Assembly: GCA_000697055.1 (NCBI GenBank)
Contig: JNDT01002251.1
Coordinates: forward strand, 1 to 64,000
Source of the DNA: Saksenaea vasiformis B4078
Taxonomy: Eukaryota > Mucoromycota > Mucoromycetes > Mucorales > Saksenaeaceae
DNA: 64,000 nucleotides
Reading direction: 5' to 3'
A program made the translations under genes and the position numbers. The notes under the pieces are model-generated. The model had not been told where the DNA came from and searched no databases. It worked only from the letters and a program-made list of their open reading frames with translations. Positions 8,679 to 30,923 of the stretch are shown one piece after another. The stretch's first letter is position 1; each line of letters opens with the position of its first letter.

Positions 8679-8734
8679 GACGCTTTCTTTTTGTTGTGAA
8701 TGAATGGGAGCAAAAAGACTGAACAGCGCCAAGG

Positions 8735-9960
8735 TCATATGTCACAAATTCGGTCATTGAAATCGAAATGTGGCCATTTTTCTTTATTTATCTTTGTGTT
8801 GACAAAATTGGTATTGGGAAACACTTCTTCTTTGCTCCAAGCATACTCCATAGCACCAAAATGCTTCTTTATCTCCAGGAACTTTTCAGGCGAGCACCCT
8901 TCACAGCTTTGGAACTCTTGCAGGAAGTTTTGCATTCTCTGTTCCAAGACGGTCTTCTGTGACGCGAAGTCCAACGTGCCATCTTCCGTGTTTTGAACTG
9001 GAACAGTTGATGTCACATGTGAGTAAGTAGACACTATTAACAGTATTCCGCATTAGAAGCTGTATGCAAGTCGTTTTCTACAATACCTTGAAGGACGTTT
9101 AGGTTGGAATTGGCACGCTGGAGGAGATACATATGGTTGCATGCTACTTGGCGCCAGACGAAGTCTCTGCAGGTGCATGCTGTCATGTTCGAATTTTCGA
9201 CAGAAATATCATATGCTACGCCCTCCTGTGTGAATGATCTGACAGTATGACCCGAGACCATATCGTCAACTACAGCACTAGGTATCTGGACAGCTGCAAT
9301 CTCTCGTCGTCTCTCTCTTTCTGCGGGCCCCATTCTTCCGACATTTGCGCTTACGCGTGCTGTGGTCATCTTGAAGTCAAACTCCACATCATGCGTCAAG
9401 ATATAGATCAAGCGATCTACTCTTCTGTTACGTTTTCTTCCAAGGTATGTCGTCTTGAGTTGATTGTGCCAGCTTTCCACATAGTTGTTGGTTTCCATGT
9501 TGGTAAAGACTTGCGGTTGGAAAGCTGCGCACCAGTTCTTCATCTTGTTGTTAGCTAGCCATTGCTCGTCAAAATATTGCAGGAAAGATGTGTGTTGCTT
9601 ATTATCTGCAATAAACTTTGTCTCCTTTTCCTCGGCACGCGAAGGATCCCTTTCCCACATTAGCGACTTCAAGGGAGTAATAATTTGTGGGTGCGCTTTT
9701 TTATTTTCCGGTTACAGCGCCAACCTTCGCTCATTTGCGGATATGTTTCATCCATGCACGAGCCACATAAAACAAATAAAATGAGGGTGATGGTGTTTGG
9801 GAAGGCGATAGAGATGACTGTGTACTTGGCGATGCTGCAATCAATCATCATCTTGTGAACGATTCAAGGTCGTAGTGATCCCTCAGGAACGTCAGCCGTT
9901 GCATCAAGGATTGTGTCTGTCGTATTCCGACATCCTTTTCAGTCATTGTCAGAGACATTA
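8735..9960 (-). pseudogene. Degraded Mutator-like (MULE) transposase with SWIM zinc finger
   Basis: On the minus strand a 211-codon frame (9672-9037) carries the C-terminal part of a MULE transposase, including WERDPSRAEEKETKFI, NNYVESWHNQLKTTYLGRKR and the SWIM motif TACTCRDFVWRQVACNHMY. A 44-nt intron (donor after TAC T, acceptor TTCCAG) joins it to a last exon ending NDRICDI at 8735. Upstream, MMIDCSIAKYTVISIAFPNT is the family's transposase-core segment, but the frame then shifts and meets stops (about 9670-9780). Further upstream traces such as FLRDHYDLES are interrupted. No N-terminal DNA-binding domain and no terminal inverted repeats were found. It is a truncated, frameshifted copy, adjacent to and pointing away from the Fanzor gene. 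Confidence 0.75.
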
Positions 9961-10613
9961 CCATCCAATAATTGGTAACTGCCGTAAATGATTCTGATTT
10001 CTACCGCGGGATTAGTTTGAGCACAGACTGTGTTGCTTGCTCGTTTCTTTATCTTTCAATCCTACTGATCCTTCATCCATAAATGAACTTCTGTTTTTTC
10101 TTGCACTCTTTTTTTCGTGAATATTCTTCAAAATACGGAGGACTGATGCATGTTTTGAGTGATTAGGTACTTCCTAAGTAGTTGCGCAGCAAAGCTATCT
10201 TATTTTGAATCCTAAATAAAGTGAGCGACATAAGAGTGCGTCAAAAGCAGCACCTGCAAAAAGTCTAGACACTCGCAGTGAAAGAAAAGGAGGGATACAC
10301 TGTTGTTTGTGTGTGGTCTGAACATTATCTCGTGCGTTTTCAAAGCAAGTAACTCTCAGGGAGCTCGCATCCAATGTTCTTGCTGCCATTTGAATGAACT
10401 ATGTCCGTGCTGGTTACGTTCACCTCCTTGATCCCGCGTATGCTGCCTCTTCATGCGACAGTAAAACAAAGAACAAGTTGCGCACATGTGGCTAGTTTAT
10501 CTGCGAAACAGGATCATGACCTGATATTGAGCATTGTTAGAAGAACAAAGAAACGTCATGATTAATTTTGAATGACAACAATGAAAACACATAATGACCA
10601 CATTCCAAAACAG
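9961..10613. other. Spacer between MULE relic and Fanzor gene
   Basis: No coding region is supported. The stretch probably holds more decayed transposon DNA and the promoter of the Fanzor gene. I looked for inverted repeats matching the DNA near 8690-8760 and did not find a convincing pair by eye. Confidence 0.35.
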
Positions 10614-10704
10614 CTTTTTACTTCTCTACCCTTCTATCCACTTTTTACTTCTCTACCCTTCTATCCATTTTTTACTTCTCCACCCCTCTATCCTCTTTTT
10701 ACTT
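10614..10704 (+). repeat. 27-bp minisatellite, about 3.4 copies, before the Fanzor start
   Basis: Three direct copies of a 27-nt pyrimidine-rich unit (core ACTTCTCTACCCTTCTATCC) start at 10614, 10641 and 10668, with a partial fourth at 10695. The array ends seven bases before the chosen Fanzor ATG, so it lies in the presumed leader or core promoter. The first two copies are identical; the third has a few substitutions. Confidence 0.85.
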
Positions 10705-10710
10705 ATTTTT

Positions 10711-13700
10711 ATGGAACCTATCGTCGAAGAAGAAGAAGAAGGAGTGGGCCCACCCGTACAACGGCAGAGGCAACGCTACAGGCACTCGATTTTGCCACGG
10801 GATCGAGGACGCTTCCAACGGGCTACAAGAAAAATAAAAGTATCGAATTTTCTCAGGCCACAGTTTGGCCATCTAAGGGTGAGTCAAACTACGACACATC
10901 TATTGCTTACTCATATATTTCGTGTAGCAACGTTTCCGGCGTATCGCCGAGCAGTATCACGTCCTTCGACGTGACGCTTTGAACCTGGCAAACCTACACG
11001 TCCGTCGCTGGGCGGAAGAGGGACACGACCACGGAAACTTCACATTTCCACCAATTGCTACTCGAGAATTTTGGAGAGCGGCATTCAGGTTTGTTCAGTA
11101 CAGGCCCTTACACATCAACACCACCCAAACCGTAAGTGTGTACATGCAGGGAAGTGGTCAAGTATCCATGCCTTTATTTTGTAGCCATCATGGGAACGAA
11201 GCCTTTGGACCACGGCGATTGATCACTTTGAGCCGTTGCGGAAGGACGAACATGGTGGATGTAAGTTAGCATTGATCGATTGAAAATGCATGGCACCAAT
11301 CTCGGCATAATAGATCTGTACGCTATCGAAAAGATCGAGGGATTTTTCATCGAGATGCCTGATCCATTTGCAATCAACGCAATACAAAGTATGAGATAGT
11401 CTTCTAATGATTATAGATCTAACATGCCCATAGATGTTCGCAGGCACATCGTGAATAATGTCTCGACATATTTGCGATATGTATGGTTGGCCTATTTTCG
11501 CGCTTTGAAAGAGCGCCATCAAGGCTTCTTGCCTGGGGGAGGACCCGCGGCTCATAGTACGAAACAAGTTCGAATAAATCTCACTAACAATGGTTCTTCT
11601 AGCTCGATTCGCCGTTACTCGTATCACAAATCATGAACCACTAGAGGACCATCACTGGCAAGATATGCCTTTCAGAGGCGAACTGCTGACTTTTTTTGAG
11701 TAAATACCTTGTGATTAATTTCATTGTTAATCATATCGACTGTCACAGGACCCAATACAATCTGTACCAGACTCACCTCGGTGATATCCTGATTGACGAG
11801 GTCGATCCAGAGGATGAAGGAACCCATCCACTTTTTCCAAGGATTGTGAAATACATGTACGAGCTGTATCCGTACACAGTTCAATATGATGGTAGCCGTT
11901 GGTCACTTCTGCCTATCGCAACACATCAAGTCGGTTACTTTCCGATTACGGGAAGGGGTCTATGGAAAATCCTACGTGATGCCTTCCTTGCGAACGATGC
12001 TGTTCCTCCACTGTTTATGGTAAGTGAGCGTATCCTGCTTTTAAGTCGTCATGTACATTAAATACTCTGATTCTAGCATGAGAATCCAAGACAGAGACAA
12101 CTACGGTATTGCAGTCTCAAAGAATTTGACGCTCTTTGTCGAGATCCCGTCTGGCGAGAAAATTTTTGGGAACAACTATTTAACATCGACAAGTGTCAGA
12201 AAAATCGCTGGCGGTGGAATAACGAACGTAGGTCGCTGTGCTTCCGAACTGCTGCTAATTAATTTATAATCTAGCTGTCGTTAATGCTGAACGTACTGCT
12301 CTTGAATTTGCTTACTATTTTGAAACGGATGGTGTAGGCGCATCTGTGGTATTCGAGTGTCGCAAACACGGTGGGAGGAAAATGGCATGCTTCTTCCTGT
12401 CCTCATACTTTGTTAAGAACGTTTTCCCTCCCCCCAAAGGGATTTTCGGCTTCTACCCCGGAATATGGACCTTGGCTCATGGACGAAGGGTATTTATCAT
12501 CTTAACAAGGAACCGACAGGTCTGGCACAGGAGCGTCTCGCAGGATCAAGGATCGTGGGACTTGACGCGGGCATACGATCGTTGTTCAGCGCGGTGGACA
12601 CCAACGAGCCACTTGTAACTCGAGAGCTGCGCAATGCTCACACAGCCACAATTAGCAACAATGAATACCAGTAAGTCCACTTTGCCATATGATGATCGAT
12701 GATCGTTAATAGGTATTTTAAGACTCCGATCCATGTTCTCGTGGGCCAAGCAAACGGAATTAAAATCACGTCGGGATGCATCCATGCAACAATATTACGA
12801 CGAAATTGCGGAGAACCCGCCTACAGTCGCTACCACGGTGGAGTTCAGAAGATATATACAAACACTCAGTCGTATACATCGACCGTAAGTGGAGCATTTA
12901 TCTGAGAATATTCAACGATACTAAAGTGGTCACTAGCATGTACGACTTTAACTGTGCTTATCGCCATCGTGAAAATCGGATGCTCTTGTACTCTGCACGA
13001 CGTAGTACGTTAAATGTACTGGCTGACAGGGTATCTACGGGTTCGCCCCGAGACGTAAGTGACAACATCTCTAATTATAGATCTAATGTCTATGTTTCGG
13101 ATAGGATTTGATCCAACCGCATTATAAATCTACAAGATCAAAAAGGAAGCGCCGGCGGGCAGCGGTTAAGAGAAAATATTCAACAGCAGCAGCAGCCGAC
13201 CATCGTCGCATATGGTGATGCGGATTTGAAGCCTACAATGAGGGGTCTCGGTCCGTTACCAGTGAAGGTATATGTTACATACTTTCCATTCAGATAATGC
13301 TAACTTAAAAACACATGCTAGCAATTCCGGAAAATACTCGCGCAGAAGTGTCTTGTTATACTAATAGACGAATATAACACTTCAAAAGTGTGCTCCAGCT
13401 GTGATAATGACACGCAGCAGTTTGTGACGCCCACTTCACGGTGTCAGCACAAGTAAGTCACTGGTTTTTGCAAGCTCATACCAATTAACATTGTGTATCC
13501 TTAGAACGAAAATGCTCCGTCGTCCGGGCGACGATCGTCGCAAAAGATACTGTTTGAACGAAGAAAATGTTATATTGCAAAGGACTTCGCAATGCCCTGA
13601 GTTGCAACCATTACGTGAGGATCAGATCATACTGAAAGCAAGTTTCATTAACAGCATTCATGATAGCTTTGAACGATTTCCGCTGCCAGGTCCATCCGAT

Positions 13701-14028
13701 TAAGTTGTGCAACCAACATCAGTTGGGAGGCGCTGGCATGGAACATGGAGAACAAAGGCCACTGGTATGTAATTCCTGTGTGAAAGTACGAAGCTAAGGT
13801 TTTCTTTAGTTTTGGAATCGCGACGTCAATGCGGGTAGAAACATGCGGCGGATTCTGGTAGCATACATGGAAGGTGACATGCAACTGCAGACAAGGCCCG
13901 CTGCATTAGGTCGTCCACAACAGCAACAGCAACAGCAACAACAACAAGAACAAGAACAAGAACAAGAACAAGAACAAGAACAAGAACAAGAACAAGAACC
14001 TGCACCCCTCGGTGGTGCTAGGCCGTAA
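10711..14028 (+). CDS. Fanzor (eukaryotic TnpB-like) RNA-guided DNA endonuclease, intact frame
   Basis: Seventeen short exons keep phase: 10711-10878, 10928-11131, 11185-11260, 11314-11388, 11434-11556, 11603-11699, 11749-12019, 12077-12227, 12275-12356, 12440-12670, 12723-12884, 12937-13054, 13163-13267, 13322-13452, 13505-13614, 13655-13764, 13810-14028. They give about 810 residues. The C-terminal half has the TnpB/Fanzor RuvC core: RuvC-I RIVGLDAGIRSLFSA (Asp about 458), RuvC-II LIDEYNTSKVCSSC (Glu about 638) with the zinc-finger cysteines, and RuvC-III FWNRDVNAGRNM (Asp about 743). PTIVAYGDADLKPTMRGLGP and FAYYFETDGVGASVVFE are further family segments. Known Fanzors cut DNA at sites set by an RNA made from the element's 3' side. 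RuvC-I has DAG where DPG is usual. The C-terminus ends in a Gln/Glu-Gln repeat. Exons 13, 15 and 16 have alternative junctions; the family call does not depend on them. Confidence 0.85.
13914..14000 (+). repeat. CAG/CAA then GAACAA repeat inside the Fanzor 3' end
   Basis: A run of CAG/CAA codons (about ten Gln) is followed by about eight copies of a GAACAA hexamer coding Glu-Gln. It lies after the segment TRPAALGR, where related proteins usually end, so it is an added tail. All units are multiples of three, so copy-number change would not shift the frame. Confidence 0.9.
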
Positions 14029-14080
14029 GGAACGGCCAACTAGCCTCTCGTTAGGCACTGGGAGAGCTTCGTAAGTACCA
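14021..14080 (+). ncRNA. Candidate guide-RNA scaffold at the Fanzor 3' end
   Basis: A perfect 6-bp hairpin (GGCCGT, loop AAGGA, ACGGCC; 14021-14037) spans the stop codon. About ten bases later a CTCTC/GAGAG pair could form a second stem (about 14046-14070). In characterised Fanzor and TnpB loci the guide (omega) RNA comes from the 3' end of the gene and adjacent DNA. Assignment here rests on position and simple pairing only; the RNA's extent and guide are unknown. Confidence 0.25.
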
Positions 14081-15537
14081 TTTCAAATGTTTGTGACGAC
14101 GTTCTTATTTTTTTTGTGACTTAAGGGCCCTTCAAGGTCATACGCTTTCGGATAAATATTTATCCGTTTCACGCCCATCAGAGGCACGTAAGCCACATGG
14201 AAGAAAGCGCTCCACCTTCTCTGCTATCAGTGTGGGTGTATTGGCCTGGAATAAATCATCCATCTTGAATTCTATGTATCCAACGGTGCTTTAATAAAAA
14301 GAAAGGAAAAGCTGGTACGGGTCTAAATATTTGCGTTTCCCAGGCTATCATGGTCACTCTGCTCTCTGGATTTATCCATCGCACTGGCGCCTTCTCATAT
14401 GTTTTTGGGAGTAGATTTGCGCGGACTCGACCTGGGAAACCCGCGTCTGATTGGAAACATTATGTCCATTAAAAAATAATATTTGCGCTGTGGTGGCCCT
14501 TTCATGACGCAAGAATTCAAGGATACTATGCTTGAATGACACTGTCTTAGATAGATAGCGTGCGAAAGCTCCAGTAAGCAGTAAGACATGTGAGGAACTT
14601 AGATCTAAAATGTAAATATCTAGCACGCCCTGACAAATCAAAACCCATTCCTGTAAAGTACAAGATGCTTGCTTATCTGGAGCTGATAAACAGTTCTTGG
14701 ATAGATAATCATCCATTTACCGCAGTTACCTGCGGGCAGCAAATTATGGTGGACGCGCTGTTCCATAATAATTTGATCAGGCGGCAGCGCACTACGCGAG
14801 GGAAAAAAGAAACGCAAGTATGGTGTCCTTTCCCAGCACATCCTTAAAGCAAGAAAGACAAGAGTACGAGAGTTGACTCAACGTAGATCTTTTCTCCTAT
14901 CTGTTTCAAAATAAAGTTATCACCACTTTTCGTCAACGGTTGATGGCGAAATGCGGCCTAACAAGAGGCATGAAATTCCCCGATCAATCGAACCTTTTTG
15001 AAAAAGGAACTGTTCGCGGAGTCAGACTAGTTAATCAAGGAAGGCGGGCCTTTACTTTGGGATTAAAGGGATGTTTTTAATTAATTCTAGCATCTATGCT
15101 TGATGTAACTAAGGTGGAAAGCAGTGATATGAACAAGATAAAACGCTGTATGTCGAATGCATGTAGTTACTGCCCACCTAGGGAAACATTCTATGTAAAA
15201 TTCCTCAACGCCAATGTATCGCGACCCATAGGCGCTCCCATGTCACTGCTCATGTTTTTTTTTGACACATAAAAACGCAGTGCTTTTTACACTCACCTCC
15301 AACAACTTCGTTTTCTTTCTATGATCGAAAAGTTTCATCTGTTATCAAGACAAACCAGGTTCGCATCTCATATGGATCCATCCAGATTCCGGTGGATAAT
15401 TCTTTCTCCGCGTGAATTTTGTAGTGCTTGAGTATTCCACGTGAGCAAATGAGGTAGCAAGGGGAAAAGGAAAAAAAAAGGGTAATACCATTCCTCACCG
15501 TTCCATGGCTTTAGAGAGCCATTATTAGTATACGTCC
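14029..15537. other. Intergenic DNA downstream of the Fanzor gene
   Basis: No protein gene is supported in these 1.5 kb. A canonical donor (14071) and acceptor (about 14126) exist just after the Fanzor stop. A shifted frame reading GRKERPTSLSLGTGRAS precedes that donor, so a spliced 3' untranslated region or an alternative C-terminus is possible. The right end of the mobile element should lie here, but no terminal repeat was recognised. Confidence 0.4.
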
Positions 15538-30035: not shown

Positions 30036-30923
30036 TGCCCTTAAAAGAAGAACATCATGCAGCATCCTGTACGGAGGTGCTGCTTGCGTATTTGTGATTT
30101 TTTTTAAACAAAAAGGAAAAAAATAGCGGCTAATGTTTCAAAGGATCAATCAATGAGGGTCTTTTTGATGGAGATGCGTTAGAAAATGGAACTTAGACAG
30201 ATAGGAGGCATATAGTAAGACCAAGGGGAAAAGTTGCAGCATTACAGGTGGACCAGCAAAGAATATCACTGGAAAGGGTCTTGATGCTAAGACCTGCATG
30301 ATCGAGACTAATGAAAGGGATTAAGGGGAATGATGGTAATGAAAAAAAAAAAAAGAAGGAGAGGTCATTTTCTATCGCTATTCATAGTCTTCTATCTAAC
30401 AATCAATTTATCTTGACCAAACGGGTCGCGTATATAAAAAAAAAACGTTGTTGATAGGAATCACACCATAATCGAGGTGGCTAAACCACTATTCCTCGTG
30501 ATTTCAAGACTGAGCCACGACCCGTAATTTTTTAAGGCTAGTCTAATGATCGGTCAAACGGACTTGAAGAAAAAAATAGATCATCGACACAAGCAGCTTA
30601 TTCAGCACCTATTGCCTGAGGATAGGCTAGTTGCAATGCAAAAGTAAAACAGCCTCCTAGAGTTTGTTGAACAATTTTTAAGCTACGCTAAATAAGTTCT
30701 GCGTCCATGAAGGCGAGGTTTTCATAGAGAGAGAAATTGAACAAGCGTTCACTAGTAAGGATTTGGCGACAACGTCTGCTTACTAGGTGGTGAACAAGCG
30801 GCTACACCACAGCTAGAACGGTTCGGGACAAAGGTCATGCAGGCTAAACGATAGATAAAAGGAAATGATTGGTCCTGTACATGTGATGAAGAATCGACAT
30901 CCTTACCGTGGATGTCTTTTTAA

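Follow-up and report, generated by a model that had tools for sequence, protein, structure and literature searches.

A Fanzor-like gene of 17 exons in the genome of Saksenaea vasiformis raises the question of whether it is an intact nuclease gene retained by its host or the cargo of a transposon and, if the latter, how one 3' end can serve both a DNA element and a guide RNA. We addressed this question using the 64,000-nt stretch of DNA that carries the gene, hereafter called the window, and a genome search covering 38.7 Mb in 666 contigs.

Genomic setting and limits of the element

The gene occupies positions 10711–14028 of the forward strand and lies between a VTI1-like gene (V-SNARE_C, 5.2e-12) and a CLASP gene (CLASP_N, 5.5e-35), the two neighbours named in an earlier note on this DNA. 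The nearest named relatives of the CLASP protein are found in Apophysomyces (53 and 61%), followed by Zychaea, Circinella and Fennellomyces, all of which we take to be Mucorales. The genome contains at least 137 matches to PF07282 and at least 121 matches to a typed piece of the window protein. As for viral contigs, they gave no match to the search pattern and no relative of the element.

The repeated unit exceeds the limits 10711–14028 given in the earlier note and extends from 8740 to 14133 on the forward strand. Comparison by blastn with 20 fetched regions identified 12 loci of the same subfamily, L039–L050. Wherever the contig permits, similarity spans 8738 or 8748 to 14133, except that L041, L044 and L047 have another left end, L049 starts at 11307 and L043 carries an insertion. 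Both ends are common to the near copies L039, L042 and L043, and L042 aligns with the window in one piece over 8738–14133, with 91.9% identity. The left terminus of the window element is about 11 nt shorter than that of most other copies. The window copy has both flanks on one contig, with the exact 9-nt repeat AAGGTCATA at 8731–8739 on the left and at 14134–14142 on the right, where it would also form the start of the guide; the reading of an element without target-site duplication was rejected. The terminal inverted repeats have only a short core in common, TATGTCAC/GTGACTTA. As a separate observation, a 27-bp tandem repeat of 3.4 copies is present within the element at 10614–10704, directly 5' of the Fanzor start codon, and in the right flanks of L041 and L044 the left-end word GATTTACT occurs approximately 10 nt beyond the right end.

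Target-site duplications were also sought among 24 left and 34 right flanks, in which 14 pairs had a common word of at least 8 nt. In 12 of them, window included, this word lay directly at the left end (10 in the window's subfamily, A, and 2 in a second one, B); in the other two it did not. Shuffled flanks yielded 4.1 pairs per round sharing at least 8 nt anywhere in the flanks. For 11 of the 12 matched insertions the two halves are on different contigs, and thus the assembly breaks in these repeats; the inner sequence of the window copy could be a mosaic. No empty insertion site was found at up to 3 mismatches.

The reverse strand at 9037–9711 encodes a fragment of a MULE transposase, corresponding to its C-terminal, SWIM-like part; aligned along 127 aa with an ORF of L099 that is 473 aa long, it shows 68% identity. 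The SWIM match of the fragment remains below the cut-off (14.6 bits), and the L099 ORF matches PF10551 above it (8.9e-8). This open MULE transposase frame is located at 1006–2427 of L099, near the Fanzor copy L027. In L053, L055, L057 and L058 the left 590–675 bp are also 91–95% identical, whereas the Fanzor pieces of the same loci reach only 67–75%.

The ends of the element, the 9-bp duplications and the homology to Fanzor1 can be read from the sequence itself, and so can the structured, conserved 3' motif and, in subfamilies B and C, its pairing with the terminal 8 nt. We consider it probable that 8740–14133 is a copy of a MULE-type transposon with Fanzor1 as cargo, a guide-RNA scaffold whose guide would come from the flank, and an intron between the pieces of that scaffold. 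The short terminal repeats and the fragmentary transposase of the window weigh against this explanation. Within it, the intron step is graded on its own, at little better than an even chance.

State of the reading frame

The 17-exon model of the earlier note can be drawn with GT-AG joins throughout, with introns of 45–57 nt, and exons 1–12 are in phase and open. With the acceptor used by the family, exon 13 (13105–13267, forward strand) is out of phase in the window copy. Its phase differs there from that of all eight other copies aligned, the net length difference from six full copies is 1 or 2 nt, and a stop is met within the exon. If acceptor 13162 is used instead, 58 nt are lost and 818 codons can be read without a stop; a few acceptors downstream of it match the phase as well. 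The open frame of about 810 residues described previously implies an acceptor choice of this kind; it exists with acceptor 13162 but not with that of the family, under which the description as intact is not supported. In each of the seven full copies, window included, at least one frameshift or stop is present under the family splice pattern, the window copy being the least damaged by our reading. Of note, the C-terminus of the protein has a Q/E repeat (13917–13999), and exon 17 is 37–63 nt shorter in the six other full copies.

Between the window and these six copies, dN/dS over exons 1–12 is 0.18–0.45, so that purifying selection acted on the source elements. Taken with the frame damage, this indicates that spreading lineages experienced selection for function and that individual copies decay. 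The window copy itself is probably not functional. The proposal of recent activity or selection thus fits the lineage, as judged by dN/dS, but not this copy.

An intact gene, possibly retained by selection, had been the reading of the earlier note. A single, domesticated gene of this kind would account for the open frame obtained with acceptor 13162 and for the dN/dS values, but hardly for the phase of the window copy under the family splice pattern, for the 12 loci of the same subfamily or for the exact target duplication. Moreover, the RuvC-I motif reads DAG in the window and DPG in L040, L043 and L044; among the remaining six full copies these three are in frame at this place, and L039, L041 and L042 are not. 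We rejected a single domesticated gene on the grounds of its multiple copies, the target duplication and the frame broken under the family pattern, and regard it as most improbable.

A divergent Fanzor1 protein

The window protein alone retrieved no Fanzor in a PDB search, and its score against PF07282 is below the cut-off (22.5 versus 26.3 bits), although its homologues P0002–P0005 carry this domain. A six-row profile made of the window protein and five homologues matched the solved Fanzor1 structures of Parasitella (9cf0, 1.6e-19) and Spizellomyces (SpuFz1; 8gkh, 2.2e-18), in agreement with the family originally proposed. The three RuvC acidic residues, previously placed at about D458, E638 and D743, were found as D470, E650 and D751 in the 818-residue reading and form invariant columns of the six-row alignment, in which the P0001 row is doubtful near the third residue, where that protein ends. 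E650 occupies the position of the glutamate in DEYxTS. As for the zinc-finger region, only its first pair matches expectation, as CSSC (CxxC); the second pair is CxxH, and the C4 site is thus partial. Among named relatives, P0001 from Fennellomyces comes closest, with 39% identity across 67% of the searched region. By these profile and alignment data the window protein is a divergent Fanzor1. Fanzors are RNA-guided DNA endonucleases, and the lineage of this protein is predicted to share that activity.

A structured motif at the 3' end

The end of the gene overlaps a structured 3' motif that is better conserved than the protein. When up to 3 mismatches were allowed, a search of the genome found 40 occurrences, of which 29 are exact, compared with none for the reversed control. 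A scan of the window with Rfam gave no match. The scaffold model has one weak match elsewhere in the window (30601–30657, reverse strand; 13 bits, E 0.098), which is probably due to chance.

From the fetched loci, 40 right ends were parsed by a script whose pattern missed L056 and L096. After removal of L055 (contig end), L094 (deletion), L070, L073 and L075 (end lost) and L097 (relic), 34 were analysed, 19 of subfamily A and 15 of subfamily B; close copies are alike by descent, and hence these counts are not independent. The layout is the same in both subfamilies: scaffold, GT...AG segment, 8 nt (7 in L052 and L053) and unrelated flank. In the window, the putative 5' piece of the scaffold (14014–14070, forward strand) overlaps the stop codon and comprises stem-loop 1 and the 5' arm of a terminal helix, the 3' arm of which, in the fold of the A form, would be the last 8 nt of the element (14126–14133, forward strand). 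For stem-loop 1, 91.7% of cells are paired across A and B, compared with 51.4% in the best slid control, and one pair differs between the subfamilies, being C-G in A but A-U in B.

The terminal helix between the last 8 nt and the scaffold has 98.2% of cells paired in subfamily B (14 distinct rows). Its outermost pair is C-G in 10 rows, A-U in 1, G-U in 1 and a gap in 2. One pair is changed on both sides, a number reached by 145 of 500 shuffles, and the number of cells changed on both sides is reached by 10 of 500. A looser pattern revealed a third subfamily, C; 15 copies were fetched, leaving 9 further places, and 13 were counted after omission of L106 and L113, whose degraded arm could not be placed. 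For L114, L115 and L118, alignment and inspection by eye were used to position the arms. The last 8 nt of subfamily C, CGAAACCC, are the exact reverse complement of GGGTTTCG in its scaffold, and 90.4% of cells are paired, compared with 59.6% in the best slid control. Both sides are changed in three of the eight pairs (reached by 10 of 500 shuffles), a value that sliding by +1 column also gives, and the covariation score is reached by 1 of 500 shuffles. The helix of subfamily A is weaker and includes a mismatch, and counting was restricted to B and C, in which the pairing pattern makes the terminal helix well supported. By analogy with other Fanzor and TnpB elements, we infer that the 3' motif is a guide-RNA scaffold and that host DNA beyond the right end serves as the guide.

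The C-type 3' ends L100–L106 and L111–L118 have, on comparison by eye, no Fanzor within approximately 5 kb on the same strand among the matches listed. These may be elements that carry only a guide RNA, or else the Fanzor belonging to them is too diverged.

A candidate intron in the guide RNA

Between the two pieces of the scaffold, the window has a 55-nt segment, GTAAGT...TTAAG (14071–14125, forward strand), with the inverted-repeat core GTGACTTA inside it and its GT...AG kept in copies. The donor GT is present in 18/19 A and 14/15 B copies, the acceptor AG in 18/19 and 15/15, and both together in 17/19 A, 14/15 B and 7/13 C copies. In subfamily C, GT is lost in four copies and displaced in L101, and AG is lost in two; the signals are CAG|GTAAGA for the donor and TGTAG for the acceptor. 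The usual length of the segment is 54 nt in A, 57 nt in B and about 67 nt in C, the introns of the gene being 45–57 nt long. In two A copies with deletions within the segment (31 and 38 nt), AG still precedes the same 8 nt. The core of the terminal repeat lies inside the segment in A and B and would therefore be removed by splicing.

Joining GT to AG creates a stem of 12–13 pairs in five of seven B copies, a length that only 5 of 825–863 junctions reach, this one included; L092 and L071 are the B copies whose junction this test does not single out. Among 17 shifts of the same length, the B junction also comes first in six of the seven copies. By folding energy among all junctions tested it ranks from 1 to 115 of 425, and first only in L091. 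The junction of subfamily A is not distinctive, as 335–404 of 596–603 junctions are equally good and its rank among same-length shifts is 3–6 of 13. The spliced B scaffold folds with a z-score of −2.99 (3 of 200 shuffles), the spliced A scaffold with −1.68 when three flank bases are included, and the spliced C scaffold gives no signal (−0.90). Among genomic sequences, intron-less copies of B gave no match and those of A one match at 3 mismatches, equal to the reversed control.

It is possible, though less probable than splicing, that the same transposon and guide RNA operate unspliced, with the terminal repeat staying in the terminal stem of the scaffold, as has been reported of other Fanzor1 right-end RNAs. 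Folding indicates that the terminal helix can form in the unspliced RNA too, and some relics that lack AG or GT keep the pairing arms (L097, L117 and L118 have no AG before the end). In addition, terminal repeats and duplications are predicted within Fanzor1 scaffolds in the part of Yoon et al. 2023 (PMC10711439) covered here. What an unspliced RNA leaves unaccounted for is a set of splice signals: an AG that abuts the last 8 nt and, between the arms, a donor of GTAAG type. These recur in three subfamilies with different arms, namely A, B and, where better preserved, C, at lengths of about 54–67 nt. Furthermore, the unspliced scaffolds of A (−0.50) and B (−0.59) fold no better than shuffles.

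The segment might instead be an ordinary 3'-UTR intron; its removal from the mRNA would then compete with the guide RNA and not build it. As far as the sources covered go, IStrons provide a precedent for an intron and an insertion sequence in one element. This reading sits poorly with subfamily B, in which the spliced product has a better-defined fold and a continuous stem, and we deem it improbable. On balance, we lean slightly towards reading the segment that separates the scaffold from the last 8 nt as an intron of the guide RNA.

Insertion-site preference

CAA is found at the right boundary of 17/19 insertion sites in subfamily A and 0/15 in subfamily B (Fisher, 1.5e-7), and in 9 of the 10 A duplications the left side shows AA immediately preceded by CC. 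The left end is common to A and several B elements, and this preference therefore goes with the Fanzor and the right end. One possible reason is that it represents the target-adjacent motif of the A Fanzor; another is a different transposase acting in trans.

A possible mechanism and its relation to known systems

It is tempting to speculate that these elements form a Fanzor transposon family with a two-exon guide RNA, in which a spliceosomal intron holds the terminal repeat, only the spliced transcript works, and A elements insert after CC and before AA, a possible target motif. We put this full proposal forward tentatively, its chances being nearly balanced. The transposase would require the terminal repeat close to the DNA end, and splicing would take the repeat core out of the RNA in A and B, thereby closing the terminal helix directly ahead of the guide. 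The guide would be the host flank past the right end. Cleavage of the empty site by the nuclease, on the sister chromatid or homologue, would be followed by repair that copies the element into the gap. In this manner, host splicing might separate the DNA-level from the RNA-level demands on one 3' end.

Fanzor1, its carriage by MULEs, the 9-bp duplications and such elements from Mucorales are already known. MuDr-type Fanzor1 elements, ROr-4, PBl-3 and MCi-4, have been described in Rhizopus, Phycomyces and Mucor (Bao and Jurka 2013, PMC3627910), and in the parts of that paper covered they resemble the window element in their Fanzor1 cargo, Mucorales hosts, 9-bp duplications and MuDR-like ends. 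In contrast to the window element and its transposase remains, they are said to encode no MuDR transposase. The word 'intron' is absent from the main text of PMC3627910, the parts of which covered here make no mention of a guide RNA.

Like the element described here, the Fanzor1 of Spodoptera frugiperda ascovirus has a right-end guide RNA in which a double-stranded stem includes the terminal scaffold bases, according to the portion of Yoon et al. 2023 (PMC10711439) available to us; there, however, the terminal repeats and the duplication are predicted in the scaffold, whereas here the repeat core is in the proposed intron. In the sections of PMC11423790 covered, the guide RNAs of the PpFz1 and SpuFz1 complexes, of 75 and 90 nt, have the same order as here, namely stem-loop 1, one stem-loop 2 and the guide. 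Unlike theirs, the second stem here would come from two genomic pieces, and the modelled spliced B scaffold is 76 nt long without guide.

Bacterial IStrons, so far as the material covered describes them, resemble the proposed element in joining an intron with an insertion sequence, but their intron is a self-splicing group I intron and the signals here are of spliceosome type. In IStrons, splicing conflicts with the TnpB guide RNA.

No report of a spliced or intron-split Fanzor guide RNA was found in the literature searched, in which subscription titles were thinly covered. In the main text of three Fanzor papers 'intron' is absent, and 'splic-' occurs zero, one and two times, the places shown being a reference title and a sentence on cyclophilins, neither of which concerns guide RNA.

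Fanzor guides arise at the ends of transposons, the same places at which the transposase must bind. For Fanzor1 elements in the literature, these binding sites are described as part of the RNA scaffold; splicing them out, if true, would be a different solution. The nuclease would thereby be coupled to eukaryotic RNA processing, and searches for guide RNAs in genomic DNA would miss or mis-draw such scaffolds.

Other families in the genome

At eight other PF07282 places, L001–L008, the scaffold model (24 sources) gave no match, and none was seen by eye. L002 and L004 encode TnpB relatives with a C-terminal DRDLNGARNI-type motif, distinct from the window family. As for L003, L006 and L007, they harbour another Fanzor family, with GTAAGT and TACTAAT shortly past the stop at about 1776–1850, and a similar 3' intron is possible there.
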